This document shows, one piece after another, positions 7,444-23,621 of a DNA stretch of 27,665 bases. Origin of the DNA: a virus. Each line of letters begins with the position of its first letter. Positions within the stretch are counted from its first letter, which is position 1. Location of the stretch: positions 1 to 27,665 of the IMG/VR virus record IMGVR_UViG_3300032562_000145, one strand, 5' to 3'. A model generated the notes under the pieces. The model saw only the letters and a list, made by a program, of their open reading frames with translations. It had not been told where the DNA came from and searched no databases. The translations under genes were made by a program, and so were the position numbers.

Positions 7444-7455
7444 GTACCGCTAGTT

Positions 7456-7501: not shown

Positions 7502-7511
7502 GATTGGTTGT

Positions 7512-7784
7512 TTAGTAAGAACCTTCGCAACAACCATCGCAACCGTGGACACCATCAATCTCGCCACTGAGTAGTCGATACTCATCTGGGTCTGGATGTC
7601 CAACACCATGAGGGCAGATTCGCTCCATCTTGCCTAGTCTCCACGCTTGCGCAAATGAACGCATCGGGTGGTCGGTCATATTGTGGATAGTGCAACGCTC
7701 GGGATTGACGCAATTGTCTGGAGAATGAACACCAATCAGAACCTGTTCAGAGTTTTCCAATTGGACACGAAGTTTTTCCGCCAT
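7512..7784 (-). CDS. Small Cys-rich hypothetical protein
   Basis: The 90-residue product has an NPERCTIHNM block, then ICPHGVGHPDPDE near residues 57-69 and CDGCCEG at the very end, giving at least six cysteines and several histidines. CPHGVGHPDPD-type sequences are frequent in small actinophage proteins and may bind zinc, though this is inference. It is the last gene of the minus-strand operon. Its ATG shares one base with the stop of the gene upstream. Confidence 0.74.
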   Translation of the reverse strand: MAEKLRVQLENSEQVLIGVHSPDNCVNPERCTIHNMTDHPMRSFAQAWRLGKMERICPHGVGHPDPDEYRLLSGEIDGVHGCDGCCEGSY

Positions 7785-7972
7785 TAGATTTCAAACTTGA
7801 ATCGATTGCATGCGGGCGTCCATGTACGGACATGCTTTCGAACGTAGTGTTGCCTCTCATTGCATCCGCACCGAGAGCAAAGTTTTGGATTGTTGTGCGA
7901 ATCCGCCAGTGCCTTACGACGAAGCCATTCTTTGTCCGCCCTGCTCTGCTTCCAATTCTCAATAAATCCCAT
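7784..7972 (-). CDS. Small zinc-knuckle-like protein
   Basis: The 62-residue product is basic, with a helical N-terminal half (FIENWKQSRADKEWLRRKAL) and then CSRCGCNERQHYVRKH near residues 38-53, a Cys-rich knuckle with histidines that could bind one zinc ion. The start is fixed at the ATG overlapping the stop of the dNMP kinase gene by one base; an ATG six codons upstream would overlap it by 19. Nucleic-acid binding is plausible from charge and knuckle, but unproven. Confidence 0.72.
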   Translation of the reverse strand: MGFIENWKQSRADKEWLRRKALADSHNNPKLCSRCGCNERQHYVRKHVRTWTPACNRFKFEI

Positions 7973-8523
7973 TAGCGATTTCTCTTCCATTGGGCGACCA
8001 GATAAACGTACTGCTCGTACAAATCTTCGATGGTTCCGTTGTTGTGCAGAATGATGTCCTGAACCTGGAGTGCGCTTTCTGATACATGCTGGTTTGTTGC
8101 TACGACGCCATCACGAACCACACGGACGAGCACGCCACCCTTTGAGCGGATAGCGTCGGCTTCGTTTGGAAAGCGGACATCGGGGATAACCAACTTGCCC
8201 GTCTTGGCTAGTTTGAAGAGCGTGTCGACCCAGATTGTGTCACCAAGTACGTCTCTTCCGCCCTCGGTTCCGAGTCGTTGAAGAAGTTGTCGAATCTCAG
8301 GGTGGGTTCGCTTGGCCTTTTCCCATCCATGCTCATCAATAAGTTCCCTGACACGAACGGAGCCCATGTACGAGTCGACGCCGACGATTGGGTTCATCGC
8401 ATAAAGGACTCGCCTCATCGGGTCAGCAAAGGAGCATCGCTCGTAGCCGTCGTTGGCAAGGAGTTGTGAAGCAAGAGCGTCTTTTCCTGCCCCGGCGTAT
8501 CCGCAAATACCGACAATGTTCAT
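7972..8523 (-). CDS. Phage-type deoxynucleoside monophosphate kinase
   Basis: The 183-residue product transfers phosphate from ATP to dNMPs, feeding dNDP and dNTP synthesis during phage replication. The Walker A loop is GYAGAGKD (residues 8-15). FADPMRR follows at the usual place for the substrate-binding helix, and LGTEGGRD and VIPDVRFPNEADAI match conserved blocks of phage dNMP kinases (T4 gp1-like P-loop family). Length is normal and no key motif is missing. The start overlaps the previous stop (ATGA). Confidence 0.9.
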   Translation of the reverse strand: MNIVGICGYAGAGKDALASQLLANDGYERCSFADPMRRVLYAMNPIVGVDSYMGSVRVRELIDEHGWEKAKRTHPEIRQLLQRLGTEGGRDVLGDTIWVDTLFKLAKTGKLVIPDVRFPNEADAIRSKGGVLVRVVRDGVVATNQHVSESALQVQDIILHNNGTIEDLYEQYVYLVAQWKRNR

Positions 8524-8660
8524 TCTTTAATCCCTAGTGTGCTTTCTGAAGGTATGTAATTTTTGCAAGTGCAATTCTCTGCGGTGCAATGTCCAAAAGG
8601 CTCCATTACAAAATGTTGCCCATAGGAATGTCCGCAGAAGCAGTTTTCATCGGCTTGCAT
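8520..8660 (-). CDS. 46-residue Cys/His-rich protein
   Basis: This short gene fills the space between the macro-domain and kinase genes. It has a strong GAGGAG Shine-Dalgarno and overlaps its neighbours by 14 and 4 bases. The product has CFCGHSYGQH at residues 7-16 and then CTAENCTC at 25-32, a pair of Cys-rich clusters that could form one zinc site. No family is recognised, but gene status is well supported by the ribosome binding site and packing. Confidence 0.65.
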   Translation of the reverse strand: MQADENCFCGHSYGQHFVMEPFGHCTAENCTCKNYIPSESTLGIKE

Positions 8661-9123
8661 ATTCGCTCCTCGGCTCTAGGTCGTAAATGTACGTTTCGAA
8701 GTTGCCGAGTTCTTCGTCGATGATTTTGGAAACTTCGTCCCATGAACCACCGCCGATTCCGCAACCAATTCGTGGAGCGTGGAAAGTAAAGTCCTCTGGC
8801 ATTTCCGCAAGGCTCTGCAAGCAATCACGAAGTACTTCGTAGTCGACTGCGACTGGCTTCTCTGAAGTGGGGAAACCATCCTGTGCGACCATGTTGGCCA
8901 CGTAGGTCTTTTCGTCTACCTTGACAATGTGTACGTCACCAAGTTCCGCACCGCCTTGTGCGTGGAACTGGCGATAGACATCTTCCGGTGCAGACCACTT
9001 GTCACTGACAGCGAGTACGAAGCCACCGCCCCAAGCGCCAAGGTTGTTACAGATGTGCATGATGAGACGGTTCCCATCTTCGACCTGTGGCTCTGTTGCG
9101 TCACCAATTACATAATTAATCAT
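8647..9123 (-). CDS. Macro-domain protein, ADP-ribose-1''-phosphatase-like
   Basis: The 158-residue product has the full macro-domain pattern: GDAT (7-10), HICNNLGAWGGGF (23-35), VANMVAQ (75-81) and PRIGCGIGGGSW (117-128). It is closest in pattern to Poa1-type enzymes that remove phosphate from ADP-ribose 1''-phosphate, or that hydrolyse ADP-ribosyl adducts. ADP-ribose 1''-phosphate arises when NAD-dependent enzymes take the 2'-phosphate from spliced or repaired RNA. A role against host NAD-based defences is an alternative. The Shine-Dalgarno is AAAGGA. Confidence 0.88.
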   Translation of the reverse strand: MINYVIGDATEPQVEDGNRLIMHICNNLGAWGGGFVLAVSDKWSAPEDVYRQFHAQGGAELGDVHIVKVDEKTYVANMVAQDGFPTSEKPVAVDYEVLRDCLQSLAEMPEDFTFHAPRIGCGIGGGSWDEVSKIIDEELGNFETYIYDLEPRSEYASR

Positions 9124-9435: not shown

Positions 9436-9824
9436 TAGTCCTCTTTCAGGATTTGGTCTAGGGCGTAGTTCAATTCGTCCTGTTGGTTCTTCCCGGTTGT
9501 TATGCCGTCGGTAACGATTTGATTCAGTCGATTTATGTTTACGTCGAATGAAATCTTTAATTGGTCGTTAGCGTCGCTCGTCTCTTCGGCGAGAACTGCC
9601 TGAAGTTCCGATGCTTGCTCGTCATTTAGTTCACCGTCAATCCATCGGCGCTCAATGCGGATGCTTTCCAATCCATGTTGAATGAGAATCTGCTTGCGCT
9701 CGTGACGGACACGATTCTTGAACATCTCTTCGACTTGTGCAACGAGGTATCCCAACTTCTCTGCCTCGTGTTGGATTGAGGCGATGAGTGAGGGGTCTGG
9801 AGTTTCGTATGGGCGGTCGCTCAC
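9435..9824 (-). CDS. Hypothetical helical protein
   Basis: The protein is mostly alpha-helical and charged, with long segments likely to coil (LIASIQHEAEKLGYLVAQVE, then RHERKQILIQHGLESIRIER, then SELQAVLAEETSDANDQLKI). I chose the GTG that overlaps the upstream stop by four bases, because nearly every start in this operon does so; this gives 129 residues. An ATG 16 codons farther upstream gives 145 residues but overlaps the upstream gene by 52 bases. No family is recognised. Confidence 0.68.
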   Translation of the reverse strand: MSDRPYETPDPSLIASIQHEAEKLGYLVAQVEEMFKNRVRHERKQILIQHGLESIRIERRWIDGELNDEQASELQAVLAEETSDANDQLKISFDVNINRLNQIVTDGITTGKNQQDELNYALDQILKED

Positions 9825-10165
9825 GGACGAACGCCAGTCGCTCGCCAAATCATCTTTGGGTTCATGTGGCACTCTGGCCTGTTGCTACGTCGGTAGTTCC
9901 CGGTAGGGACAATCAACTTTAAAGACTTAGCGTTGCGGATAACGGCACCAAGGGCACGAGGCTCCCGTGTTGCATCGATGTTGCGATTGGTTAGAACTTC
10001 CCAAACGTCGTCGGTCGTAAACTCGCCAAGTGTAAGGGCGCAATGCTTAACAGCGTCAAGCGCCTCCTTGAACCAAGTCGGGTCAGCGTTGTCTCCTGCC
10101 TTCTTAATCGCACGAGTCGTAATAACATCATTCGATTCAGGGATAACGTCAAACAATGTATCCAT
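9821..10165 (-). CDS. Winged-helix-like DNA-binding protein
   Basis: The 114-residue product carries FTTDDVWEVLTN near residue 50, then REPRALGAVIRNAKSLKLIV and NYRRSNRPECHMNPKMIW. This sequence pattern (a helix, a recognition helix after a PRALGAV turn, a wing with an R-S-x-R-P-E-C-H element) matches a common phage winged-helix family of unknown target. It starts with a strong TAGGAGG Shine-Dalgarno. Its task may be gene control or replication; no nuclease or ATPase motif is present. Confidence 0.72.
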   Translation of the reverse strand: MDTLFDVIPESNDVITTRAIKKAGDNADPTWFKEALDAVKHCALTLGEFTTDDVWEVLTNRNIDATREPRALGAVIRNAKSLKLIVPTGNYRRSNRPECHMNPKMIWRATGVRP

Positions 10166-10182
10166 AATTCCTCCTAATTACT

Positions 10183-10437
10183 TCATGAAAACGAAAGACC
10201 CAGTGCCTGTTCGCCGTACTTCTTTGCGCTCTCTTCGGCTCCGGCCTTTGCTTCCTCAATCGAGTCAGCAGTTCCAACCTCGCCATAACGAGTTCCTTCA
10301 AATCCCGCTTCATAAGACCACTTGCCGTCATGCGGGTAAGCGTAAAGCGTTCCAAAATAAGAACCAGCATTGAAGTCCGCATAAAAACCACGCCCAACCT
10401 CCTCCCAGTCCTCAACAGTCCACTTGGTTTCTTGCAT
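10183..10437 (-). CDS. Hypothetical 84-residue acidic protein
   Basis: The start is set at the ATG after a GAGAGGA Shine-Dalgarno, nine codons inside the longest frame. The product has tryptophan- and tyrosine-rich strands (KWTVEDWEEVGRGFYADF, then FGTLYAYPHDGKWSYEAGF) and ends in an alanine- and glutamate-rich helix. It has its own promoter upstream, so it can be expressed apart from the gene before it. No family is recognised. Confidence 0.74.
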   Translation of the reverse strand: MQETKWTVEDWEEVGRGFYADFNAGSYFGTLYAYPHDGKWSYEAGFEGTRYGEVGTADSIEEAKAGAEESAKKYGEQALGLSFS

Positions 10438-10463
10438 TTGATTCCTCTCGATGTTTAATAACA

Positions 10464-10492
10464 AGAGTAATGCAAATTGGGCTTTTTAGCAA
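10464..10492 (-). promoter_or_regulatory. Sigma70-like promoter
   Basis: On the minus strand: -35 TTGCTA, 17-base spacer, -10 TACTCT, followed 26 bases later by the ATG at 10437. It lacks the ACTAAAC element found in most other promoters here. It sits in the only sizeable gap of this part of the operon. Confidence 0.55.
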
Positions 10493-10516
10493 GGATTTTT
10501 TAGGCTGGTTCATGCC

Positions 10517-10933
10517 TTAGTAGACACGAACCGAGCCGTAGTAGCGAACATCAAAATAGTCAGTCATTGGGTCTGAGTTGTTGTGGTTGTAAGAGTCGTA
10601 GAACTCCTGAAGGATTGCACGGACTCGCTCACCCATCGGGCTCATCTTCACGTCACCATCGCATCGTGGCGAGTGGAACCCAAGCGACGTGTTAATCATG
10701 TCGCAGAATTCGTGGCACTTGCTCAAATCCTCGGGGAGCCAAGCCTCGCCGTTGCTCTCTGCACTGATGTTGATTGACTGACCCATTGAGTAGTACTCGC
10801 TTCGCACTGAGTACTTCCAGTGCTTTGGAAGAAGACCCAATTCCTTGGCTTCTTTGATGTCGGCACGGATTGCCTTTGCAATCGTTACAGCCGAGTTGTC
10901 AGTCACTTCGTGATACTTCGTTCCTACAGTCAT
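10517..10933 (-). CDS. Hypothetical protein, LPD29-like domain
   Basis: The 138-residue product has AIRADIKEAKE near residue 22, then HWKYSVRSEYYSMGQSINIS, an LPEDLSKCHEFCDMINTSLG helix, and a C-terminus ending in VRYYGSVRVY. This layout (IRADLK-type helix, a KYSVR strand, SINIS strand) resembles the large polyvalent protein-associated domain LPD29 found in many phages and mobile elements. Its biochemical role is not established. It has its own promoter and a near-identical leader to the genes at 12291 and 3841, with an AGGGAGG Shine-Dalgarno that fixes the start. Confidence 0.75.
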   Translation of the reverse strand: MTVGTKYHEVTDNSAVTIAKAIRADIKEAKELGLLPKHWKYSVRSEYYSMGQSINISAESNGEAWLPEDLSKCHEFCDMINTSLGFHSPRCDGDVKMSPMGERVRAILQEFYDSYNHNNSDPMTDYFDVRYYGSVRVY

Positions 10934-10966
10934 TCTGACCTCCCTAGTCGTTTATTTTACCTACTA

Positions 10967-10995
10967 ACTATACCACAGTTTAGTCAACTATGTGG
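10967..10995 (-). promoter_or_regulatory. Promoter with ACTAAAC element
   Basis: On the minus strand: a weak -35 (CCACAT), 17-base spacer containing ACTAAAC that begins 12 bases before the -10, then -10 TATAGT (10967-10972). The leader ends GACTAGGGAGGTCAGA just before the ATG at 10933. The ACTAAAC position is the same as in the promoters at 12325 and 20252. Confidence 0.6.
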
Positions 10996-11327
10996 CCACC
11001 GAAATTTATATTCACGTACATTCCTGCTTCGTAAACGTGGTCTTTCAGGTCGTCGCAATAAATCCCCTTGACTTCGCCCTTCACCTTGTTGCGCCAGACT
11101 CGCTGGACTGTGTAGGTGTCTGTGGCATCCAACAGGACACGAACTCGGTATCCGTTGCTCACCGGAAGGTCGACGCCAACGAGGTCTCCATCGGCGTTGT
11201 AGACGCCTTCAGTGCGAAGACCCGAGACCTGGAGGTGCGTACCCATTCCAATCTGCTGGAGTGTCTGTCGGTAGTCGCAAGGACGGTATGCACCTTCAAC
11301 GACTGTTGGCATTTTGATTTTTCCCAT
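10980..11327 (-). CDS. Hypothetical 115-residue protein
   Basis: The start is the ATG after a GGGAGAA Shine-Dalgarno; the open frame runs much farther upstream but only as an antisense-free shadow of the next gene in another frame. The product is beta-rich (LQVSGLRTEGVYNADGDLVG, then NGYRVRVLLDATDTYTVQRV), with two cysteines far apart. It is the third gene of an operon starting at 12291 and shares its terminal bases with the promoter of the next unit. No family is recognised. Confidence 0.75.
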   Translation of the reverse strand: MGKIKMPTVVEGAYRPCDYRQTLQQIGMGTHLQVSGLRTEGVYNADGDLVGVDLPVSNGYRVRVLLDATDTYTVQRVWRNKVKGEVKGIYCDDLKDHVYEAGMYVNINFGGHIVD

Positions 11328-11338
11328 TTTTATTCTCC

Positions 11339-12103
11339 CTATTTCTTTGACTTTGGTGGCTTGTGAGCCTTGATTACTCCGGCTTTTGTGACTGGCGGGA
11401 ACTGCCCGCAATCGCACTTGATGTAACTGCGCCCACGGAATTCGTTTTCCAGGGGAGCCGTGCCCGAACGTGGGCAACGCTCTGCGAGACGCTCTTGCTC
11501 GTCCCTTGAAATTCCGTTTGTGTACTCGACTGGTGCCGTGGGGAAGCAGACCGTGCAAAGAATTGCACCCTGAGACTCGACAGCATCGCTCTCGCTGAGA
11601 CCGCTGAGGTTTGGAAGCCAGCAGAACTGCGTGTAGTTCTTTCCGTTGTTGCACGTTGAGCAGTCCATGGAGTTGTGGATGTGTCCACCGACTACCAAGT
11701 AAAACCGACTCCAACCCGTGTACTTCTTCTGCACTTCTTTTAGTTCGCCAAGAATCTTGCGGAACTCGTCAAGGCAAGTGTCGTACTCAACGAGGCGCTC
11801 TTCGACCTTGCTCTGCACACCTTCGTAGAGTCGCCCCTCGCTTAATACTTTGACGAACTTGCGCTCGCTTGTCCACTGGCGCACGAGGTCGATGCTGTAC
11901 TTGAATCGCTCGTCGCCACTAAAAAGGTAGTAGTCACGACGTGCGTAGAGACCGCCCTCCTCGGGGTTGACCTTTACTTCCCTGGCTCCCGAAGTGTAGC
12001 GAACCCGTCGCTCTTTTACCTCAACGTCGACCTGAGCCTCGTGCAACAATCCGTACAGGCGAACAATCTCGGTGTCGATGACAACCTCTGGGCGCTCACT
12101 CAT
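11339..12103 (-). CDS. Actinophage hypothetical protein with Cys-rich domain
   Basis: The 254-residue product has an N-terminal charged half with strands and a helical part (SKVEERLVEYDTCLDEFRKI), then a Cys/His region from about residue 140: GGHIHNSMDCSTCNN, FCWLPNLSGLSE, and ILCTVCFPTAPVEYTNG. The H-CxxC-WLP-LSG-LCTVCFP-APVE pattern is well known from many actinophage proteins without assigned function; it probably binds one or two zinc ions. The C-terminus is lysine-rich after a CDCGQ motif. It overlaps the upstream gene by four bases. Confidence 0.82.
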   Translation of the reverse strand: MSERPEVVIDTEIVRLYGLLHEAQVDVEVKERRVRYTSGAREVKVNPEEGGLYARRDYYLFSGDERFKYSIDLVRQWTSERKFVKVLSEGRLYEGVQSKVEERLVEYDTCLDEFRKILGELKEVQKKYTGWSRFYLVVGGHIHNSMDCSTCNNGKNYTQFCWLPNLSGLSESDAVESQGAILCTVCFPTAPVEYTNGISRDEQERLAERCPRSGTAPLENEFRGRSYIKCDCGQFPPVTKAGVIKAHKPPKSKK

Positions 12104-13323: not shown

Positions 13324-13434
13324 ATGATGACGAGCCCAATCCACCACATACTGTTCAATTCAGAACTTGTTGGCATCGGCCTCATCGCTGGCTTTTTTAT
13401 TGCCATGCTCATCTCCTTCTTCCGCAAGAACTAA
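13324..13434 (+). CDS. 36-residue membrane peptide before the terminase
   Basis: A short frame with two ATGs in a row and an AGGAG Shine-Dalgarno four bases before the first. Residues 15-33 form a hydrophobic span (LVGIGLIAGFFIAMLISFF), followed by a basic RKN end, so it is a single-span membrane peptide. Its TAA shares one base with the ATG of the large terminase, whose own ribosome binding site is weak. Translation of the terminase therefore probably depends on this small gene. Its separate function, if any, is unknown. Confidence 0.62.
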   Translation: MMTSPIHHILFNSELVGIGLIAGFFIAMLISFFRKN

Positions 13435-15470
13435 TGAACCCACTCATTAAAAAACTTGCCGCTGCTACGCCGGAGCAGAGAAACGCAATTCTTTCCAAAC
13501 TTTCGACGGAAGAATTAACATCCGTTTTCAAGCAACTCGAATCCATCGAGAACGCTCCGATGCGCCACTGGTATTGCACCCGTGCGACGTGCGATGGCAA
13601 CCCTCACGCAGGTTTCCATTGGTGCGAACACCCAGTCGACGGTAAGCACACCCCGTTCTGCAAACACGCAAGAACACCACAGCGACCTCCGCACAGCGAC
13701 CCAGATGACCCATGGCTTGTTTGGTTCTTCTCGGGCGGACGTGGCACGGGTAAGGCTCTTGCTCTTGATACGCCTATTCCCACGCCATTTGGTTGGGCAA
13801 AGATGGGTGAACTGAAAGAAGGGGACGTTGTATTTGACGAGCGGGGGCGTATGTGCAACGTCACTGCCATTTACGACGTAATGCCAGAGCGTGCGTACCG
13901 ATTGACCTTCTCTGACGGAAGCGAAATCGTGGCGTGCGACGAACACCAGTGGGCGACACTCACCGCCCAAGAACGAAAGCAACTAAATCGCAAGGGGCTT
14001 CCAATCCCCGACGACTGGGCTAACAAAGCGCCAATCACTACCGCCGACATTGTGGCGACGTTGAAGTATGGCAAGCGTGGCGACACCAACCACGCCATTC
14101 CCGTTTCCAAACCGTTGGAACTTCCCAACGCCAACCTTCCTATTGACCCGTACATTTTGGGGGTGTGGCTTGGCGACGGTTCATCTGGCGGTGCAGACAT
14201 AACTTGTCATGACGACGACATTGCGCACTATCGCCAGAAGTTTGACGGGGTTGGTGAAATCTTTGGAGAGGGTCGCTACCGAGACGCCGACAAGCCCACC
14301 GCAACGTATCGTTTTGGAAACAAGCCCGAACAACTTAATGCTTTGGGGCAAATGACAGCCAATGGCTCAATGCACTCAAAACTACGAGAACTTGGTTTGA
14401 TAAATAACAAGCACGTTCCCGTTGTGTACTTCCGTGGCTCCGTAAGCCAGCGCATTTCACTGCTTCATGGCTTGATGGACACGGACGGGTACATTGACGA
14501 GCGTGGTATGGCAGAGTTCACGTCTACAAAGCGTGTTCTTGCCGAAGCCGTAGTTGAACTTGCTCGCTCACTTGGTCAAAAGCCAGTCATGTCAGTTGGG
14601 CGCTCAACCTTGTATGGCAAGGACTGTGGCGAAAAGTATCGTGTGCACTGGCGACCCACCATTGAAGTGGTTTCTTTGCCTCGTAAGTTGGAGCGACAGA
14701 AGCCCTACGGCGCACAGTCAATGCGCAATCACCACCTCATGGTCGTATCCGCCACAGAGGAACTGCTCCAACCTATGCGCTGCATTACGGTGGACAGTCC
14801 TAACTCCATGTACCTTGCGGGCGAGGCAATGATACCGACCCACAACACCCGAGCCGGGGCTGAGTGGGTTTTGGACTTGGTTTGGAATCAAGGGTACAAG
14901 CGCATCGCCCTCGTTGGTCGAACACCAGCGGACGTTCGAGACGTAATGATTTACGGAGACTCGGGAATTATGTCCGTGTCCGACCCAAACCCAAGGCCGA
15001 TTCACGAGCCAACCAAGAGACGACTGATTTGGGAAAACGGCGCTCAGGCTTTCACGTACTCGGCTGCTGCGCCGAGTCAGTTGCGTGGTCCTCAGCACGA
15101 CGCTGCTTGGTGCGATGAGTTAGCGGCGTGGACAGACGCACCAAAGGGTGACTCCCTCGATACGAGTTGGAACAACTTGATGCTTGGTCTCCGTTTGGGA
15201 ACTGACCCGAAGTGCCTTGTCACCACGACACCAAAGCGTGTCAAATTGGTTCGACAAGTTATGGAGCGACGCACAACCGTAATCACTAACGGTACGACGT
15301 ATGAAAACCTCGACAACCTTGCTCCGTCGTTTAAAGACCAGGTTCTAACGTCCTACGCAGGAACAAGAATCGGACGACAGGAGTTGGATGGCGTCGTCCT
15401 CTCCGACGTCGAAGGCGCTCTATGGTCTCTGGAAATGATTGATTCTCTTCGTGGGGAGTTGGTCGAATGA
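13434..15470 (+). CDS. Large terminase ATPase part, interrupted by an intein
   Basis: The 678-residue precursor is the ATP-driven DNA packaging motor, minus its nuclease. Residues 1-107 hold a Cys/His-rich N-terminal region (WYCTRATCDGNPHAGFHWC) and the first part of Walker A, GGRGTGK (101-107). An intein fills 108-471. The ATPase resumes with TRAGAEW (472-478), giving GGRGTGK-TRAGAEW after splicing. The Walker B acid pair is Asp561-Glu562 (AAWCDELAAW), and the coupling motif is LVTTTPKR (595-602). The spliced product would have 314 residues. The nuclease domain is missing and is encoded by the overlapping next gene. Without splicing the ATP site is broken. Confidence 0.92.
   Translation: MNPLIKKLAAATPEQRNAILSKLSTEELTSVFKQLESIENAPMRHWYCTRATCDGNPHAGFHWCEHPVDGKHTPFCKHARTPQRPPHSDPDDPWLVWFFSGGRGTGKALALDTPIPTPFGWAKMGELKEGDVVFDERGRMCNVTAIYDVMPERAYRLTFSDGSEIVACDEHQWATLTAQERKQLNRKGLPIPDDWANKAPITTADIVATLKYGKRGDTNHAIPVSKPLELPNANLPIDPYILGVWLGDGSSGGADITCHDDDIAHYRQKFDGVGEIFGEGRYRDADKPTATYRFGNKPEQLNALGQMTANGSMHSKLRELGLINNKHVPVVYFRGSVSQRISLLHGLMDTDGYIDERGMAEFTSTKRVLAEAVVELARSLGQKPVMSVGRSTLYGKDCGEKYRVHWRPTIEVVSLPRKLERQKPYGAQSMRNHHLMVVSATEELLQPMRCITVDSPNSMYLAGEAMIPTHNTRAGAEWVLDLVWNQGYKRIALVGRTPADVRDVMIYGDSGIMSVSDPNPRPIHEPTKRRLIWENGAQAFTYSAAAPSQLRGPQHDAAWCDELAAWTDAPKGDSLDTSWNNLMLGLRLGTDPKCLVTTTPKRVKLVRQVMERRTTVITNGTTYENLDNLAPSFKDQVLTSYAGTRIGRQELDGVVLSDVEGALWSLEMIDSLRGELVE
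13755..14846 (+). other. Class 3 intein with LAGLIDADG homing endonuclease
   Basis: This 364-residue insertion begins with Ala108 instead of Cys or Ser, followed by LALDTPIPTPFGW. Its block B has DEHQW (Trp173), block F has MRCITVDSPN with Cys450, and block G has MIPTHN with Thr469, His470 and Asn471, followed by Thr472 as +1 residue. Trp, Cys and Thr at these places are the hallmark of class 3 inteins, in which the block F cysteine starts splicing. LGVWLGDGS (242-250) and LLHGLMDTDGY (343-353) are the two LAGLIDADG motifs of a homing endonuclease. All splice residues are present, so it is probably active. Confidence 0.9.
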
Positions 15471-16105
15471 TTACCGTAAAGGCAGAAGAATTTTTGAGAA
15501 TTGTTGTTGGCGTCGACCCCGCAATTACTTCGGGAGAAGATGCGGACGAAACGGGAATCGTTGTCGTCGCAAGCGGACCGCACCAGCCGGATACTTGCTC
15601 TATTGAACACTGCACTCTTCACGCCTATGTTTTGGAAGATGCGACACTGCCAAAGGGCTCAAAGGCAAGTCCCGAAAAATGGGGACGACGTGTAGTCGAT
15701 GCGTTCGACGAATGGAACGCTGGAATCGTTGTCGTTGAAGGTAACGCTGGGCGTGAACTTCTTCGAAGCGTTCTTCATAACATCAGGCCGACCATGCCCG
15801 TGGACATCCCAAATGCGAAGTACAACAAAGCGAGTCGAGCGGAGCCGGTCGTGTCTTTGTATGAGCAGGGTCGTGTTCACCACATTGGAGACCCGGCGAA
15901 GTTTGCTCTTTTGGAAGACCAAATGACAACGTGGGTTCCAACTGGTTCACGTGGCCGGGGCAAGTCCTCGCCAGACCGAATGGACGCCCTGGTTTGGGCA
16001 ATAAGCGAGTTGGACATTAACACCGGGGTGCGCCGTCGTCGGTGGGAAGTCGAAGACGGCATCGCCCCATTGGGGTTTGGCCAGTCAAACCACTGGCAAA
16101 TTTAA
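15467..16105 (+). CDS. Large terminase nuclease domain (separate gene)
   Basis: The 212-residue product matches the C-terminal RNase H-like nuclease of phage large terminases, which cuts the genome concatemer. IVVGVDPAITSGEDADETG at about residues 12-30 gives the first catalytic acid (Asp17). VVVEGNAGREL gives Glu91, and SPDRMDALVWAISEL gives the last pair, Asp170 and Asp173. It begins on an ATGA overlap with the ATPase gene, with a GGGGAG Shine-Dalgarno, so the two are coupled. In most phages these domains form one chain. Here the break falls in the linker, so both halves should fold and may reassemble. Confidence 0.88.
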   Translation: MITVKAEEFLRIVVGVDPAITSGEDADETGIVVVASGPHQPDTCSIEHCTLHAYVLEDATLPKGSKASPEKWGRRVVDAFDEWNAGIVVVEGNAGRELLRSVLHNIRPTMPVDIPNAKYNKASRAEPVVSLYEQGRVHHIGDPAKFALLEDQMTTWVPTGSRGRGKSSPDRMDALVWAISELDINTGVRRRRWEVEDGIAPLGFGQSNHWQI

Positions 16106-16840: not shown

Positions 16841-17926
16841 TTAGATAATTTCCTCGCCAGAAGAGTCGACACGAACCAGACTTGGGAATGATGGAGGCAT
16901 CGAAAACATATCGGCAAGGTAGATGTCGCCAACTGCTTCAAAAGCAACCTCGACTTCTTCAGCATCATCCGTTCCAGTTGTGTATTCGCTCTGAGAGAGG
17001 TCAACGATGTCGGTGAGGTTCAGAACAACGTCGATTCCTCCAACTTCGCTAATCTGGGCAAGACGTGTCTTAATTGACTTTCGGACAAGCCAAAAAAGTG
17101 ACTCATAAGTCGAGAGCAGAATACTTTGGACTGCTCCATTCGCATCAGCAAAGTTCGTGTAGTGGGACGATGAGTAAAGGTTGTTCAGGAAGTTTGGAGA
17201 TGCGCTTCGTGCGAAGTGACGAATAACGTTGTTAAGCAAGTTCGCACCCTCGGTGCTTCCATTTCCGTAGCGCACCTTCTCAGAGTGCTTGACCTGGTAG
17301 ATGCTTCCAATCGAGCCATCAAACAAGATTCCAAACTTCTGGGAAATGAAAGCATAGGTATCGGAGTTGTGGTCCGAGCGGTTCGATGGGCCGTACTTAA
17401 CAAACTTCTCTGAGTCAGAGACGGTCGAAACAAGTTCCAGGTTGTTGATTCGCACAACCAGTTCGTTCCACAGATTTACAAGGAAAACCAATCCAAGTTC
17501 ATCAAGAGATTCGGTCTCTGGGTTGTATACCCAGTTTGGGCCGTACAGAAGAGAACGAACATCTCGTGAGACTTCGTTGACGAGTTCGTCGTGACCCTCA
17601 ATCTCACTGGTTGCAAGTTCACTCAAAAACTTAGAGAGTTTGCGACGAACACTCTGGTTTTCCAGATTGCGTCGAGCGGAATCAACTTCCGAACGAATTG
17701 ATTCAGGGTTTTCAACACGGAGGAAAACCGAAGAGCCGTTGTCTCCCCTTACGTCGAGGTCGAACATGTCTCCGACGAGGTACCCAATCGTTGGGGTTGT
17801 CTTGACCTTGACTGGGCGATTCTCAACGTCTACTGCGCTGAGGCGCTCTTGTGCCCGTGCATAAATAGATGCGTTGATTGCATCCATGTCGATTGACACC
17901 CTCTTGGTGCTTGATAACTTGCTCAT
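16841..17926 (-). CDS. Hypothetical 361-residue protein, own promoter
   Basis: This is one of the largest genes in the window and has a good promoter and AAGGGAG Shine-Dalgarno. The N-terminal 40 residues are basic and helical, then comes TIGYLVGDMFDLDVRG, a helical region (SARRNLENQSVRRKLSKFLS), and a central part with KFGILFDGSIGSIYQVKHSE and SPNFLNNLYSSSHYTNFADA. The C-terminus is acidic (TGTDDAEEVEVAFEAVGD). There is no catalytic motif I can name. It lies in the block with the amidoligase and glutamine amidotransferase, and could be a target or partner of that pathway, but this is only context. Confidence 0.78.
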   Translation of the reverse strand: MSKLSSTKRVSIDMDAINASIYARAQERLSAVDVENRPVKVKTTPTIGYLVGDMFDLDVRGDNGSSVFLRVENPESIRSEVDSARRNLENQSVRRKLSKFLSELATSEIEGHDELVNEVSRDVRSLLYGPNWVYNPETESLDELGLVFLVNLWNELVVRINNLELVSTVSDSEKFVKYGPSNRSDHNSDTYAFISQKFGILFDGSIGSIYQVKHSEKVRYGNGSTEGANLLNNVIRHFARSASPNFLNNLYSSSHYTNFADANGAVQSILLSTYESLFWLVRKSIKTRLAQISEVGGIDVVLNLTDIVDLSQSEYTTGTDDAEEVEVAFEAVGDIYLADMFSMPPSFPSLVRVDSSGEEII

Positions 17927-17994: not shown

Positions 17995-18339
17995 CTATTT
18001 TTTGACCACTTCGCCATTGTTGTACCAGGACTCCGTGAAGTCGATTGCCATCTGAAGTTCATCCAACGGCGGAGTCCCAGATACCTTCAATTCAATAATC
18101 CCAAACTCGGCGAGCCGATTCAAAAACAACTCATCGCTAAGTTCGTCGTCTATGAGAATTCGATACTGAACAAAAACACGGTATGCAATTCCTCGCTTTG
18201 GGAACTTGTGGTCTAGTGGCGCCCAGGAACGTTCTCCAATTGTTTGAAGTACGTCAAATGCCGAAGGCGCAATGATGACTTCGTTGCCCCACTTGATTTC
18301 CCACTTTGCGTCGGTTGGTACAAGGTTTGGGATGTTCAT
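17995..18339 (-). CDS. Hypothetical 114-residue protein
   Basis: It has a GAGAGG Shine-Dalgarno a short way before the ATG. The product has a strand-rich N-terminus (AKWEIKWGNEVIIAPSAFDV), a basic GIAYRVFVQYRILID stretch, and a helical C-terminal half (ELQMAIDFTESWYNNGEVVKK). No cysteine and no known motif. It sits between the glutamine amidotransferase gene and the 361-residue gene, in the same direction. Function unknown. Confidence 0.72.
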   Translation of the reverse strand: MNIPNLVPTDAKWEIKWGNEVIIAPSAFDVLQTIGERSWAPLDHKFPKRGIAYRVFVQYRILIDDELSDELFLNRLAEFGIIELKVSGTPPLDELQMAIDFTESWYNNGEVVKK

Positions 18340-18404: not shown

Positions 18405-19139
18405 TTACGCAATCTGCTTCAGGCTTTCGCCAATCTCTCGGGTCTCAACAATTTCGCCATTGCGAACTCGGATGTAGGTGTACGGTTCAAGGTCTTCGTA
18501 CCAAAGAATGTCAACACCAGCCTTGTCGCAAGCACGAAGAAGAAGGTCTTCCGTCGAAGCAAAGAACAAGGAGCCCTTCTCCGTCGAGCCGACCGTCAAA
18601 GGTGAGCCGTCGCATCGTGCAAGGTGCAAGTCACGCTTTTCACGAGCATCAAGCCAAGCCAGCGCAGCACGTCCCTGCAACGAACGCAATACGTCGGCTG
18701 GGTGATGACGAGTTAAGTTCAAAAGCGCAAAAGCAGCCTCACTATCAACCTGCGCCTGGCGCTCTTCGTTTAGGTACTCAAAGATGTTGTCGTCGTTGTT
18801 TAGAACGCCGTTGTGGACGCCGATAATCTTCCCTGAAACGATTGGGTGGTTGTTTAGATTGTCATCGGGTGAGCCCTTGGTTGCCCATCGGGTGTGAAGG
18901 ATTGCTCGCTTCGTGTTCGTGGACATCTTCGTTAGATACTGGTCGAAAAGAGACGCTGGCACTGGAGCCTTGCTAACAGCAATGGTTGAGCGCTTACTCT
19001 TTTCGGTTGGAGCCACGACCCATGATGCGCCAGTGGCGTCTTTGCCACGAGATGCAATCTCTTTTAGCAAGCAACTTGAAACCTTACGTGCATTAATCTT
19101 CTCGTTTGGGCTTAGGCAAAATCCTGCAATTCCACACAT
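18405..19139 (-). CDS. Class II glutamine amidotransferase
   Basis: The 244-residue protein frees ammonia from glutamine for transfer to another substrate. The start is the ATG that places cysteine second (MCGIAGF), as required for the N-terminal nucleophile once Met is removed; an AAGGAG Shine-Dalgarno supports it, and longer starts would block the enzyme. Other active-site elements are SRGKDATG (30-37), HTRWATKG (82-89), VHNG (108-111) and DSEA (132-135). It has no synthetase domain, so an ammonia-using partner is expected; the amidoligase gene 10 bases upstream is the obvious candidate. Confidence 0.92.
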   Translation of the reverse strand: MCGIAGFCLSPNEKINARKVSSCLLKEIASRGKDATGASWVVAPTEKSKRSTIAVSKAPVPASLFDQYLTKMSTNTKRAILHTRWATKGSPDDNLNNHPIVSGKIIGVHNGVLNNDDNIFEYLNEERQAQVDSEAAFALLNLTRHHPADVLRSLQGRAALAWLDAREKRDLHLARCDGSPLTVGSTEKGSLFFASTEDLLLRACDKAGVDILWYEDLEPYTYIRVRNGEIVETREIGESLKQIA

Positions 19140-19149
19140 GTGGTTCTCC

Positions 19150-20214
19150 TTAGTTTCGAGTGCTGGCAAGTCGCTCGGCACGGTTGGTTAGATACTGCTT
19201 GACGGTGGGCTTGATGTCGAGGCTGTCCAGGAGGCTGGACAGGTTTCCAAGTTCTGTTCGGGCGTCATCGAGGGTGACAGCCTTTTCGACCATCGCAAGA
19301 ATGAACTGAATCCAAGATGTCAACTTTTCGGGGCTGAGCGTTCCCTGGTGCTGGCGGAACTCCAAGGTTCCGTACTTGGAATAGGACTGGATATTGATGA
19401 CACGGTACCGTGAGCCAGTGTTGAAGACATTCTTCTGTTGCTTGGTCTGCTCCACGTCTGTCATGCGTCGGATTAAACCCCACGTGTGGTCTTCCGTACG
19501 AATGGCTTGCTGGGTGTACGGAGCGCAGTACTGGTTGCTGTGACGACTGCTGGCAACCAGAGTGTTGATGCTCTTCTGGTTAGCAATGTAGAAGTCAATC
19601 ACCTTCATGAGGTCGTAGCCAGTGAGGTTGTCCATGCCAACGTGAACGTGGATTCCGCAAGTGCGGTCAACTGAAGCGCCAGCGTCCATCAGAGCCTTGA
19701 TTGCAGTGGCCATCTTTTCCAATCCTTCGACGCCCTGAAGAACAGGGGAGACCAATTCAAGTCCGTTTCGAACACCAGTGCCACGCTTTGTAACGGAAGC
19801 ATCCGTCACAATCTTCCAAGCAGAGGTCACTTCGTGGGTGTACCCACGGAACTCAACGTCGATGCCGACGTTACGCAATGCGCCAACTGCGACGGTGGGC
19901 GAGATTCCAAAGAACTCAGCCTCGACGCCGAATGTGCGCTGTGAGGGAATTTCCGAAAACCCTTCGGGGCGGACGCCCTCGTTCTCGGGAACACCACCGT
20001 TGCTCTCCAGCCGACGCTTAGCAGCACGTACCGCCTCTGCTGCGGACTGAGGGCGTGGGACGCCGTTGGGCGTGAAGCCGAGTTGACGAGCGATGTCGAT
20101 GTATGACATGCCACCATTGCGCAGACGAAGTGCTTCGTCCTGGCGAGCGATGGTTGCGGAGCGGTCACGATTGATTGATGACCTGTTGTACTGCACTGGT
20201 CGGTTACTTGGCAT
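19150..20214 (-). CDS. Amidoligase with N-terminal HTH
   Basis: The 354-residue protein has a helix-turn-helix-like N-terminus (RLRNGGMSYIDIARQLGF, about 30-47) and an amidoligase domain of the glutamine-synthetase-like COOH-NH2 ligase group. Key parts are FGVEAEFFG (95-103), WKIVTDAS (133-140), GLELVSPVLQG (151-161), CGIHVHVG (186-193) and GTLEFRQHQGT near residue 300. The acids, histidines and arginine fit an ATP and metal site. Such enzymes join an amine or ammonia to a carboxylate of a peptide or metabolite. The substrate is unknown. It has its own promoter and is followed by the amidotransferase gene. Confidence 0.88.
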   Translation of the reverse strand: MPSNRPVQYNRSSINRDRSATIARQDEALRLRNGGMSYIDIARQLGFTPNGVPRPQSAAEAVRAAKRRLESNGGVPENEGVRPEGFSEIPSQRTFGVEAEFFGISPTVAVGALRNVGIDVEFRGYTHEVTSAWKIVTDASVTKRGTGVRNGLELVSPVLQGVEGLEKMATAIKALMDAGASVDRTCGIHVHVGMDNLTGYDLMKVIDFYIANQKSINTLVASSRHSNQYCAPYTQQAIRTEDHTWGLIRRMTDVEQTKQQKNVFNTGSRYRVINIQSYSKYGTLEFRQHQGTLSPEKLTSWIQFILAMVEKAVTLDDARTELGNLSSLLDSLDIKPTVKQYLTNRAERLASTRN

Positions 20215-20251
20215 ACTGTCTCCCTTGGTTGGCCAATTTTCCTACACACCA

Positions 20252-20280
20252 ATAGTACAGGGGTTTAGTACCGATTGCAA
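20252..20280 (-). promoter_or_regulatory. Promoter of the amidoligase operon
   Basis: On the minus strand: -35 TTGCAA (20275-20280), 17-base spacer ending GTACTAAACCCCTG, -10 TACTAT (20252-20257). The ACTAAACCCCTG part is identical to that of the promoter at 12325. The leader has CAAGGGAG before the ATG at 20214. Confidence 0.82.
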
Positions 20281-20355
20281 ATCCTACAGCCCATGAAAAT
20301 AAAGGCTTTCCAAAAGAACTTTTAAAAACATCCGTCAACCAGCAAAATAAAACTA

Positions 20356-20384
20356 TTGCTTTTACCACCCGATGACTGTACCAT
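20356..20384 (+). promoter_or_regulatory. Promoter, divergent from the amidoligase promoter
   Basis: -35 TTGCTT (20356-20361), 17-base spacer ending GATGACTG, -10 TACCAT (20379-20384). GGTTGAGTACC follows directly and resembles the GGTTTAGTACC form of the element on the other strand at 20262. AAGGGAG precedes the ATG at 20415. The two divergent promoters are about 75 bases apart. Confidence 0.68.
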
Positions 20385-20414
20385 GGTTGAGTACCTCAAA
20401 CAAGGGAGAAAATT

Positions 20415-20672
20415 ATGAGCAAGCCAAAGCGTCGTCGTCACGTCAAGCGTGGTCGACCCGAGACCGAGACGGTGCGTCTAGCAGGTCTGCTCCTTGGTGC
20501 TTTGACGTGGTTCTATGCAGGTGCTTTCATCACACCGCTGGGGAACGAAGAACAGAGCGGAACTCGATTCGGCGTCTTGTGCGCCTTCTGTTGGATGCCA
20601 CTTTTCATCTTTCTGTGGCAGTTGATAGTCGCAATTGGTTTCGTCATTCGGGAAGATTTTCGTAAGCGCTAA
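20415..20672 (+). CDS. 85-residue membrane protein, two spans
   Basis: A basic N-terminus (SKPKRRRHVKRGRPETE) precedes two hydrophobic segments (RLAGLLLGALTWFYAGAFIT at about 21-40 and GVLCAFCWMPLFIFLWQLIV at about 53-72) and a basic end (REDFRKR). By the positive-inside rule both ends lie in the cytoplasm. A strong AAGGGAG Shine-Dalgarno fixes the start. It is divergent from the amidoligase operon and may be expressed together with it. No family is recognised. Confidence 0.78.
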   Translation: MSKPKRRRHVKRGRPETETVRLAGLLLGALTWFYAGAFITPLGNEEQSGTRFGVLCAFCWMPLFIFLWQLIVAIGFVIREDFRKR

Positions 20673-20711
20673 ACACCACATGAGTTAGCCCCGTTTGGTA
20701 ATGTTGGGTTC

Positions 20712-21149
20712 ATGACTCATCTTGAAATAGAAATCAAAACAGGAACGGTTAACGTCTGCAAGCGAAATGCCATTAACGGCATTGTCACCCGTGAGGTTTG
20801 CATCGGCTCCGTTAGTTCGGATGAGTCATCAGAGGAACGTTGCAAGAGCGCCGAAGAAATCGCAAAAAACTTTGGTTGGATTGCCGTTGATGAATGGGTG
20901 AGCGGAGAGACCCACCAATGGGTCGAGTGCCAGGCGAAGCCGGTCTCTGTTTCGTTCGTAAGCGAGTCAGCCCCTGACAATGCGGTATCTCTTGCAAAAT
21001 CAGCGGGCGTTGACGCCGAAAAACTTCTTTACGAGGAGCCCTACGACGCCGAAAGCGGAAAAATCCGTGTTTGGTTTGAGGTCGCCGAGCCCAAGGGCTG
21101 GACGTGGGAAGAAAACTTGCCATGGGGAAACTGGTTTGACGAGGAGTAA
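20712..21149 (+). CDS. Hypothetical 145-residue protein
   Basis: The product is acidic with strand-rich parts (THLEIEIKTGTVNVCKR, then TREVCIGSVSSDESSEE), a helix (ERCKSAEEIAKNFGWIAV), and an acidic, tryptophan-rich C-terminus (PKGWTWEENLPWGNWFDEE). There is no Shine-Dalgarno; a possible -10 (TAATGT) ends seven bases before the ATG, so the transcript may be leaderless. No family is recognised. Confidence 0.72.
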   Translation: MTHLEIEIKTGTVNVCKRNAINGIVTREVCIGSVSSDESSEERCKSAEEIAKNFGWIAVDEWVSGETHQWVECQAKPVSVSFVSESAPDNAVSLAKSAGVDAEKLLYEEPYDAESGKIRVWFEVAEPKGWTWEENLPWGNWFDEE

Positions 21150-21152
21150 GAA

Positions 21153-21383
21153 GTGATTGACCACAAATGGATTGAAGATAGCGAATTTCTGTACATTTTG
21201 GATAGCGTTCTTTATCCCAAAGAGATGAAGAGTCGTTTCGTGGTTAATCACCACTGGCAAGAAGGTTGGCAGACCTGTATCCAAAACGAAAATGAAGAAA
21301 TCATTGTTTTGAAAAACAACGCCACCCGAGAAATGGCAAAGGTTTACGCCTACCGTCTTTTGCGTGAACTAGAACGCTCGTAA
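21153..21383 (+). CDS. Hypothetical 76-residue protein
   Basis: The GTG start follows a GAGGAG Shine-Dalgarno at a good distance. The product has aromatic and histidine residues (VVNHHWQEGWQTCIQNENEE) and a C-terminal helix (TREMAKVYAYRLLRELERS). It may be a small beta-alpha protein related in plan to the 81-residue protein at 16102. It is separated from the next gene by one base. Function unknown. Confidence 0.7.
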   Translation: MIDHKWIEDSEFLYILDSVLYPKEMKSRFVVNHHWQEGWQTCIQNENEEIIVLKNNATREMAKVYAYRLLRELERS

Positions 21384-21384
21384 A

Positions 21385-21726
21385 ATGGAGCGACTTCCCC
21401 TCTATCGCCGGATAATCATCCTCGCCACTGGCATCATTTCCAAAGATGATGCGAAGATGTTTGGTTTCAGCGCTTCATCTGCGTTGCCCGAGGAAGTTCA
21501 AATCCAAATTGCAACGCAAGAAGCCCTAGCAGCGGCCATCGAAATGATTGGACTCCAAAGCGAAGTCTGGGAAGATTTATCCGACACCATTCGTGACATG
21601 GGCATATACGTTGAACTAGAGTTTTCAACGGCACGTCGTTTGGATGAAGTCGCCAAAAGGCTGGAGGCTTCGTTGGACGTAGTTAAAGAGCCGATAGGTC
21701 TCGAAATGGATTGGAACATTGAATAA
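21385..21726 (+). CDS. Hypothetical 113-residue protein
   Basis: The ATG comes one base after the stop of the preceding gene, which suggests coupling. The product is mostly helical (PEEVQIQIATQEALAAAIEM, ARRLDEVAKRLEASLDVVKE), with a basic, hydrophobic N-terminus (ERLPLYRRIIILATGIIS). No cysteine and no known motif. Function unknown. Confidence 0.7.
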   Translation: MERLPLYRRIIILATGIISKDDAKMFGFSASSALPEEVQIQIATQEALAAAIEMIGLQSEVWEDLSDTIRDMGIYVELEFSTARRLDEVAKRLEASLDVVKEPIGLEMDWNIE

Positions 21727-21727
21727 C

Positions 21728-22021
21728 ATGACCGAAGAAAACACATCACCAGAGCCAACGGAGTCTGAACTCAAAGACATTGAGTTTGATGAGCGAATTC
21801 AAAGCCTGATGAAGGTTCACGAAATTGAGCGCAAGATGCTCAGCCGTGCAATTTACGTGCTTTGCGACATGAGTGGCAAGTCACCAGAAGAGACAGTAAA
21901 ACTTCTTTCGCAAGACCTCGATGAAGAGTACGTGGAAGCAGTTAAGCAAGCGGAGGAACAAGAGAAGGCCGAGAAAAACAAGCCAAAACTCTACATTCCA
22001 AACCGCAAACTCAACCTGTAA
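21728..22021 (+). CDS. Hypothetical 97-residue acidic protein
   Basis: The ATG lies one base after the stop of the previous gene; a TTG three codons upstream would overlap it. The product is strongly acidic, with a disordered start (TEENTSPEPTESELKDIEFD), two helices (IQSLMKVHEIERKMLSRAIY and SPEETVKLLSQDLDEEYVEA) and a charged end. It converges with the next minus-strand gene, only six bases away. Function unknown. Confidence 0.7.
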   Translation: MTEENTSPEPTESELKDIEFDERIQSLMKVHEIERKMLSRAIYVLCDMSGKSPEETVKLLSQDLDEEYVEAVKQAEEQEKAEKNKPKLYIPNRKLNL

Positions 22022-22027
22022 TTCGAA

Positions 22028-22405
22028 CTACTTGATTATTTGAAAGTAGTGCTTAATAACCCTCTTCTTTGTCTTCTTTGACATAGGCGAGGGAGTTTTG
22101 TACTCGTCCGAATGGAACAAACTACCTTGCGCTTGTTTTTTAGCAGAGGTTATTGGAACGACCGGCGCTTTACGAAGACCCTGAATGTATGAATCAGGAA
22201 CCGTTATTTCTGGTAGGTCGAACATGATTTCATCATCCGTCTCTTCAAAGAGATAGTACGGAAGGTCTTTCAGGGTGCAACCAATGAAGTGGCACCACTC
22301 GAAGTCGTCCATCCCACGAACGTGGTCTTCTCGCAGGTCATACCTCCTTGCAAGATAGAAGATGTCGTCCTCGTTAAGAGAGTTTGATACTTGTCTCACC
22401 ACCAC
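22028..22405 (-). CDS. Hypothetical 125-residue protein
   Basis: Three GTG codons in a row overlap the stop of the upstream gene; I use the first because AAAGG lies five bases before it. A TTG eight codons farther upstream would overlap the upstream gene by 34 bases. The product has an acidic helical middle (DLREDHVRGMDDFEWCHFIG, then LPYYLFEETDDEIMFDLPEI) and a basic, disordered C-terminus (SPMSKKTKKRVIKHYFQIIK). It is coupled to the cyclotransferase-like gene. No family is recognised. Confidence 0.68.
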   Translation of the reverse strand: MVVRQVSNSLNEDDIFYLARRYDLREDHVRGMDDFEWCHFIGCTLKDLPYYLFEETDDEIMFDLPEITVPDSYIQGLRKAPVVPITSAKKQAQGSLFHSDEYKTPSPMSKKTKKRVIKHYFQIIK

Positions 22406-22818
22406 ACCGACCTTTCTGCCGATAGCCAATTATTGTCAGGAACCGCTCCGCCGTGGGTTTCTTCCCAGGTGCAAATGAGTGCCATCTCTCGGCGCCCATC
22501 GGCCAACTCAACTTCGCCTTCGCTCATTCGGTACCCCGAATTTGTTTCCATGCGTAGAAGGTCTACAAACTCTGAACACACTCGAACTTCGTATAGTTCA
22601 CCGACTGCTTCGTCATCAAACTTTTTAGTCCAGACGCAATAGGGGTAGGACTTGTGATTGACTCCGTAAAAGAGTCGTGCGTATCGCAACTTCGCTTCAC
22701 CCACTTCGTTTACAATGATGTTCTTCAGCCACTGTTCGTGCAATGGCTCTCCCTTTCGGAGGGTTCCATACGCAAAAAACATAAGCGTCTCGGTCGGTGC
22801 TATTACTTCATTTTCCAT
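22396..22818 (-). CDS. Gamma-glutamylcyclotransferase-like protein (GGCT/AIG2 fold)
   Basis: The 140-residue product has the GGCT substrate loop FAYGTLRKGEPLH (15-27) and the acid Glu91 in LLRMETNSGYR, where these enzymes carry the catalytic glutamate after a GELYEV strand (73-78). GGCT-fold proteins release 5-oxoproline from gamma-glutamyl amides or amines. In this window it lies about 2 kb from an amidoligase and a glutamine amidotransferase, so it may trim or reverse the bonds they make. The start is the ATG eight bases after a TATAGT -10; no Shine-Dalgarno is present. Confidence 0.85.
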   Translation of the reverse strand: MENEVIAPTETLMFFAYGTLRKGEPLHEQWLKNIIVNEVGEAKLRYARLFYGVNHKSYPYCVWTKKFDDEAVGELYEVRVCSEFVDLLRMETNSGYRMSEGEVELADGRREMALICTWEETHGGAVPDNNWLSAERSVWW

Positions 22819-22894: not shown

Positions 22895-23188
22895 ATGTCA
22901 ATGAGCGACAGCCCCGTGCCAATCAAAAGACAGTTCTTTCTATCACAAAAAGAGAGCAGAAGGCATGCGGATAAAGTGAGCGCCTACATGGTTGAGCGAT
23001 TCCAAAACTCCAAGGTAATCGCACGAATCACCCCGGTCGGTTTATTGAAGACAACCATTTCCGAGCATCAAGTAACTGCTTTTGCAATAAGCCAGGGACT
23101 GAAGACAAGTGGCACCTGGGAAACAAAAAAGAGTCGACTACACAAATCTATTGACGCAGTTGAAAATGAGGGGTATCGCTTTGAATAA
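22895..23188 (+). CDS. Hypothetical 97-residue basic protein
   Basis: The gene begins with two in-frame ATGs two codons apart, neither with a clear Shine-Dalgarno. The product is basic (SQKESRRHADKVSAYMVERF) with a C-terminal half that looks like a small winged or helical domain (TISEHQVTAFAISQGLKTSG, then TKKSRLHKSIDAVENEGYRFE). DNA binding is possible. It overlaps the WhiB gene by eight bases, so the two may act together. Confidence 0.68.
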   Translation: MSMSDSPVPIKRQFFLSQKESRRHADKVSAYMVERFQNSKVIARITPVGLLKTTISEHQVTAFAISQGLKTSGTWETKKSRLHKSIDAVENEGYRFE

Positions 23189-23621
23189 GTACTGGACTGA
23201 CGAGGCAGAGTGCAAGGACATGCCGAAGAACGACTTCTTCCCCTTAAAGGGAGAGAAGCAGAATCAGAGCGCAATTGACGCTTGCGCAAGATGCACGGTC
23301 AGAGAAGAGTGCGCTAACTGGGCGGTACTTCATGAGGTGCATGGCTACTGGGGAGGACTGACTGCCAAGGAGCGAGCAAAGATTCGAGTTCAGATGAGCA
23401 TCTACCCAGACATCCCCGAAAGCAGGTACGGACGCTCATCGCTAATCGTGAAGCGACGCCCACGACCACCGTGTGGAACGCAAGCGGGATACAAGAGCCA
23501 TCGCCTCTACAACGAGATTGTCATCCCCCTCAGAGATGGCGGGTGCGGTTGCATGGAAGCAAACTCGGAAAAAGTAAAAATGTACCAAAAGAACTGGTTG
23601 GCCAAGAAAGCGCAGAAGTAA
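23181..23621 (+). CDS. WhiB-family iron-sulfur regulator with extra C-terminal Cys domain
   Basis: The 146-residue product carries the four WhiB cysteines (Cys11, Cys35, Cys38, Cys44), which hold a 4Fe-4S cluster, and GYWGGLTAKER (55-65), the turn and basic region of the family. WhiB proteins bind the primary sigma factor and DNA, and phage versions can alter host transcription. Beyond residue 95 it has an added part with PPCGTQAGYKSH (97-108) and CGC (123-125), a pattern seen in small actinophage proteins and likely to bind zinc. I chose a TTG start after GAGGGG; an ATG five codons upstream lacks a Shine-Dalgarno. Confidence 0.9.
   Translation: MNKYWTDEAECKDMPKNDFFPLKGEKQNQSAIDACARCTVREECANWAVLHEVHGYWGGLTAKERAKIRVQMSIYPDIPESRYGRSSLIVKRRPRPPCGTQAGYKSHRLYNEIVIPLRDGGCGCMEANSEKVKMYQKNWLAKKAQK

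Follow-up and report, generated by a model that had tools for sequence, protein, structure and literature searches.

An amidoligase, a class II glutamine amidotransferase and a small conserved protein of no named family are encoded one after the other in a 27,665-nucleotide stretch of viral DNA (IMG/VR record IMGVR_UViG_3300032562_000145, positions 1 to 27,665; hereafter the window), which also encodes a GGCT/GGACT-fold protein (GGCT). We put the probability at roughly 0.5 that the amidotransferase (GAT), the amidoligase (AML) and the small partner (here called S) act as a single amide-forming unit fed by glutamine, to which GGCT is an accessory; such a unit would be of a type spread through phages and bacteria. 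This reading builds on the identities of the proteins, their intact active sites, the gene order AML-(GAT)-S, a natural fusion of AML with GAT and the linkage of GGCT, from which we infer the chemistry. The basic three-enzyme set is already known and is not new; the gene set of the window is real, looks functional and is known in part, and it represents a distinct variant that is widespread and includes a partner family so far overlooked.

The four genes lie on the minus strand. AML (19150-20214, 354 aa) joins an N-terminal helix-turn-helix (HTH)-like domain to a ligase of the glutamine synthetase fold, as judged by its profile match to PF12224 and an AlphaFold2 model, and its stop codon is separated by 10 bases from the start of GAT (18405-19139; 244 aa from the ATG, with an N-terminal Cys2). 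S (17995-18339, 114 aa) follows. GGCT (22396-22818, PF06094, with the YGTLR motif and Glu91) occupies a separate block 2.2 kb upstream, past five open reading frames (ORFs) on the opposite strand (20415-22021). The original prediction had proposed a pathway of these three enzymes for the amide bonds of a peptide or metabolite; profile matches confirm all three assignments at their positions, and the coordinates bear out the placement of GAT 10 bases behind AML. Its grouping of the enzymes holds for AML and GAT, which adjoin, but not for GGCT, which stands outside their block.

AML matches PF12224 with an E-value of 1e-40 and 140.6 bits against a curated cut-off of 22 (profile search), and its model (predicted local distance difference test, pLDDT, 88.7) adopts the glutamine synthetase fold (Z 14.4, root mean square deviation 3.5 over 209 residues) at an identity to glutamine synthetase of 12-15%. 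The ExE, HxH and ExR active-site pattern of this fold is present, and the catalytic residues of the glutamine synthetase type (E98, E100, E153, H189, H191, R224, N274, E285 and R287) are invariant across 60 AML relatives. Although fold and catalytic residues are thus common to both, AML lacks the N-terminal domain of glutamine synthetase and carries the HTH-like domain in addition. The latter spans residues 18-71 (20002-20163, minus strand) and consists of three modelled helices (18-33, 38-45 and 55-71). The window protein gives weak HTH_7/Sigma70_r4_2 matches in this region, and among 62 AML N-termini weak matches to HTH_7 (14 proteins), HTH_23 (12) and HTH_18 (10) were obtained, the individual Pfam scores falling below the curated cut-offs. 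Most N-terminally extended AMLs have HTH-like N-termini, of two types found in phages and Bacteroidota, while Cys-rich, Zn-ribbon-like N-termini take the place of the HTH in five loci (L064, L066, L081, L086, L219). Many short AMLs have neither, and the presence of an HTH differs between AML lineages. A strict link between HTH and GAT was considered and rejected: Hymenobacter-type AMLs have an HTH and S, and no GAT.

GAT matches GATase_6 (E 1.2e-19), its closest solved structure is the glutaminase domain of GlmS, and the residues of the glutaminase site (C2, R84, T87, N110, G111 and D132) are invariant. GGCT scores 48.1 bits against PF06094 (E 2.1e-12, cut-off 22.8), with a conserved YGTLR loop and an invariant Glu91. 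The original prediction had named a loss of active-site residues in structural models as evidence against itself; those of AML, GAT and GGCT are all intact.

The two adjoining enzymes also occur as a single polypeptide. A viral contig from the random sample encodes a natural AML-GAT fusion of 915 aa (L381, 7919-10666, plus strand), in which two hydrophobic stretches, possibly membrane-spanning, can be discerned by eye. As the GAT cysteine is internal in this protein, the fusion would need processing or would work differently.

Co-occurrence in other phages, set beforehand as a test, was positive, well beyond chance. Searching by GAT alone recovered 80 viral loci, 69 of which had at least 1.3 kb of upstream DNA, and AML lay directly upstream of GAT in all 69 (the scripted count of 68/69 missed L127 through a coordinate artefact of stop-to-stop ORFs, and this locus is counted as positive). 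GGCT was present in 16 of 42 AML-GAT contigs as against none of 44 random viral contigs searched in the same way, a difference for which the Fisher p of 2e-6 overstates independence given that the contigs are related; among the closest AML-GAT contigs the count rose to 15 of 18. The linkage of GGCT recurs in Arthrobacter phages, a Bacillus phage, prophage-like bacterial loci and podoviruses, and GGCT also accompanies AML-S loci that have no GAT.

Among named phages, a close match to the window is the cassette of the Arthrobacter phages Kovu, Edmundo, Salgado, Laroye and Ottawa, in which the order GGCT-AML-GAT and the HTH on AML recur, with S downstream in Ottawa and Kovu. It differs in that AML is 36-40% identical, GGCT is adjoining rather than 2.2 kb away (in Kovu and Edmundo the three genes stand in a row), and the genes have been annotated one by one only. 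The S gene of Kovu crosses the cohesive ends and is annotated merely as a fragment.

In the relatives closest to the window, S shows a degree of conservation similar to that of GAT (56-70% identity) and always comes after GAT. Among 52 dereplicated viral AML loci that extend far enough downstream, 45 have S after GAT, or after AML where GAT is missing. This count is partly circular, since the S profile was trained on those same loci, and it includes a few loci in which intervening sequence of as much as about 1 kb precedes S. The out-of-sample figure comes from bacterial loci unused in building the profile: S occupies the same slot in 50 of 80 of them (a few of the 80 overlap IMG/VR prophages), and only two matches fall elsewhere, both of them second copies immediately 5' of AML, such that two S genes flank one amidoligase in Bacteroidales/Prevotella loci (L260, 3624-5182; L262, 5441-6998). 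The other 30 divide into 19 Bacteroidales-type loci with a short GAT, whose catalytic residues are intact, and no S, and 11 with neither S nor GAT. A control set of 120 random viral stretches (0.95 Mb, 10,572 ORFs) gave no S match.

The confident model of S (pLDDT 86.7) consists of a beta hairpin, three helices and a third strand. Attempts to place it in a known family were unsuccessful: neither the window protein nor most members have a significant match in Pfam, NCBIfam or PHROG (actinophage forms match PHROG 16392, a family without assigned function), Foldseek returned nothing below E 0.17, the top VIA-align Z was 2.7 and the top sequence match in the PDB had an E-value of 0.13. A role as covalent acceptor was likewise rejected, as S has no invariant Lys, Asp or Glu and only Arg and Phe residues conserved near 85%. 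Because an invariant acidic or lysine residue is lacking, S looks, from its sequence, more like a subunit than a modified substrate.

In the unit that we favour, GAT would split glutamine at Cys2 and pass the ammonia to AML, which would phosphorylate a carboxylate with ATP and convert it to an amide in the manner of glutamine synthetase, as its fold and residues suggest. S, to judge by its linkage, may serve AML as a subunit or by targeting it, and would be required whether or not GAT is present; GGCT might open gamma-glutamyl bonds formed on the way or reverse the modification. Several points weigh against this reading. Known ammonia-channelling enzymes normally carry their class II GAT domain fused to the synthase, and class II GATs that stand alone, EgtC and Dug3 among them, hydrolyse gamma-glutamyl bonds. 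The relatedness of the contigs tempers the co-occurrence statistics, and GAT is absent from 26 of 45 viral S clusters and from all 50 bacterial S loci. With so many AML-S pairs lacking GAT, ammonia derived from GAT is no general need of AML, and the distribution suggests that GAT is an add-on to a core made up of AML and S. S, a conserved partner that family libraries leave unnamed, may have been overlooked, although an earlier mention in Iyer 2009 is possible.

The strongest competitor, which we nonetheless think unlikely, is that the set alters the stem peptides of host peptidoglycan, through new amide links or the amidation of D-Glu or diaminopimelate, for instance for phage exclusion or to tune lysis. 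A 'peptidoglycan modification' module of GGCT, an ATP-grasp ligase, GAT, an amidoligase and a COOH-NH2 ligase has been described in phiEco32, LUZ24, PaP3, PA11, tf and RIO-1 (PMC5498523, PMC11945000, PMC3890496; citing Iyer 2009, Hardies 2013), AML and GAT have been noted in OM43 phages (PMC10580990), and the wall has been proposed in print as the target of the phiEco32/LUZ24/RIO-1 modules (PMC5498523, PMC11945000, PMC10580990). The original prediction had referred to such a proposal from comparative genomics, and did so correctly: in these last three papers, all of which point to Iyer 2009, modification of peptides or cell walls by such sets is put forward as a hypothesis. No assay of a wall target or of a change in host peptidoglycan was found in the papers on the phage modules. 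There is precedent for the chemistry in MurT-GatD, for which amidation of the wall by a ligase and a glutamine amidotransferase is established (PMC3267633). Like the window pair, these proteins bring an amide to a carboxylate, but MurT belongs to the Mur ligases and GatD to the class I GATs, and neither is homologous to the window proteins. The possibly membrane-spanning stretches of the AML-GAT fusion would also suit a wall enzyme.

Comparison with the published module speaks against a wall target. The modules of phiEco32, LUZ24, PaP3 and RIO-1 have Amidoligase_2, a class II GAT and GGCT in one region, as does the window; they differ in having COOH-NH2 and ATP-grasp ligases and in lacking an HTH on the amidoligase and S (no HTH-type N-terminal extension was found on the amidoligases of phiEco32, PaP3 and RIO-1, and no S in their modules). 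Conversely, a COOH-NH2 ligase (PF14395) was not found in the window, which is a fragment, in 12 relatives of up to 121 kb or in the complete Arthrobacter phages Ottawa and Edmundo, and an ATP-grasp (RimK-like) ligase, sought with the PaP3 protein as query, was not found in the same set. Positive controls behaved as expected, the COOH-NH2 ligase being recovered from PaP3 and phiEco32 and the ATP-grasp ligase from PaP3, RIO-1 and phiEco32. The window set is therefore not the full published peptidoglycan module; an HTH is odd for a wall enzyme, and the conserved S is no part of the module as described. Together, the HTH and the absence of both ligases mean that the widespread version should not be assigned to the peptidoglycan module untried. 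The amide-bond pathway of the original prediction thus draws support from co-occurrence, intact active sites and the published wall or peptide proposal, but not in the form of the full module, and the HTH leaves room for a target outside the wall. This matters beyond the window: phages and mobile elements commonly carry Amidoligase_2 genes, which have been called cell-wall modifiers for more than 15 years, and no assayed product was found in the papers retrieved. S makes this long-open question of the role of phage amidoligases more testable: this conserved partner is small, looks soluble and may be required for activity, and tests of the ligase alone would miss it.

Slightly less probable than wall modification is a gamma-glutamyl cycle on a small amine, in which AML would add glutamate via its gamma-carboxylate and GAT and GGCT would cleave the product, as in EgtA/EgtC, PuuA/PuuD or BtrJ/BtrG. 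Activity on gamma-glutamyl bonds is common to the three enzyme classes, EgtC and Dug3 being hydrolases of such bonds, and the structural neighbours of AML include YbdK (Z 13.3), a gamma-glutamyl ligase of the glutamine synthetase superfamily. The occurrence of GGCT with AML-S pairs lacking GAT fits as well. In EgtA/EgtC and PuuA/PuuD, too, a ligase of this superfamily is paired with a stand-alone glutaminase-like hydrolase, but they belong to other families and come with neither S nor HTH, two features of the window that a gamma-glutamyl cycle would leave unexplained. Moreover, GAT matches GATase_6 and the GlmS glutaminase rather than EgtC, and many AML loci are devoid of GGCT.

Two further alternatives turn on the N-terminal domain of AML. 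The domain might be purely regulatory, with AML repressing its own operon in the manner of BirA or NadR, in which case it would say nothing about the substrate. An N-terminal HTH repressor domain is indeed found on the ligase or transferase enzymes BirA and NadR, and the varying presence of the HTH among AML lineages agrees with such a role; however, no operator came to light, no search having been aimed specifically at an inverted repeat 5' of AML, and we consider autoregulation improbable. Slightly more doubtful still is that the DNA-binding-like domain takes AML to DNA or to a DNA-bound protein, which would then be amidated or glutamylated. In favour of this are the recurrent HTH-like or Zn-ribbon-like N-termini and the bacterial AML loci, where only GGCT is a commoner neighbour than DNA methyltransferases. 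Against it stand the sub-threshold Pfam scores of the HTH, the many short AMLs without such a domain, the fact that these neighbours are typical of any prophage, and the window itself, in which no base-modification enzyme was seen. An equally speculative extension treats Amidoligase_2 enzymes and S as a core of two parts that has not been described before and that, in some lineages, GAT supplies; guided by the recurrent N-termini of the ligase, this core would install a novel amide modification on DNA or on proteins bound to it, and would not act on the wall. Finally, that these are independent auxiliary genes brought together by chance is barely credible: the separate GGCT block of the window would fit, but the co-occurrence statistics and the natural fusion already refute it for AML, GAT and S.

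Three genes without assigned function had been suggested by the original prediction as possible parts or substrates of the set, with uneven outcome. The one at 17995 is the conserved partner S. Membership is uncertain for the other two, both on the minus strand. The gene at 16841-17926, located 3' of S, is fast-evolving and has homologues after S in L013 (4e-49), L003, L004, L019 and L055, and weakly in L016; as these lie only in or close to the clade of the window itself, it was rejected as a general part of the cassette. The gene at 22028-22429, located 3' of GGCT, has a homologue adjoining GGCT in a single relative, L004.

Several other genes of the window and its relatives deserve mention. 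The large terminase gene (13434-15470, plus strand) contains an intein in the Walker A motif (GGRGTGK / ALALDTPIPT ... IPTHN / TRAGAEW), which begins with Ala and by eye fits the class 3 (WCT) inteins; the homologues in L003, L004 and L005 are free of it. The ATPase and nuclease domains of this terminase are encoded in two overlapping ORFs (13434-16105, plus strand; overlap at 15467), and since the same split is found in those three relatives, it is probably real and not a sequencing error. A protein encoded at 23109-23621 (plus strand) resembles WhiB by eye, with a four-Cys pattern and GYWGG, suggesting an actinobacterial host. The window also encodes a PNKP-phosphatase-like protein (473-910) and a Macro-domain or ADP-ribose phosphatase-like protein (8647-9123, minus strand; PHROG 335). 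Among related phage contigs, L003 has a cytochrome P450-like ORF (7098-8279, minus strand; FGSGLHPCTG), and L005 has an ORF resembling NodU/CmcH-type carbamoyltransferases (9671-11395, minus strand) with glycosyltransferase-like ORFs nearby, which could serve the modification of DNA or of a glycan.

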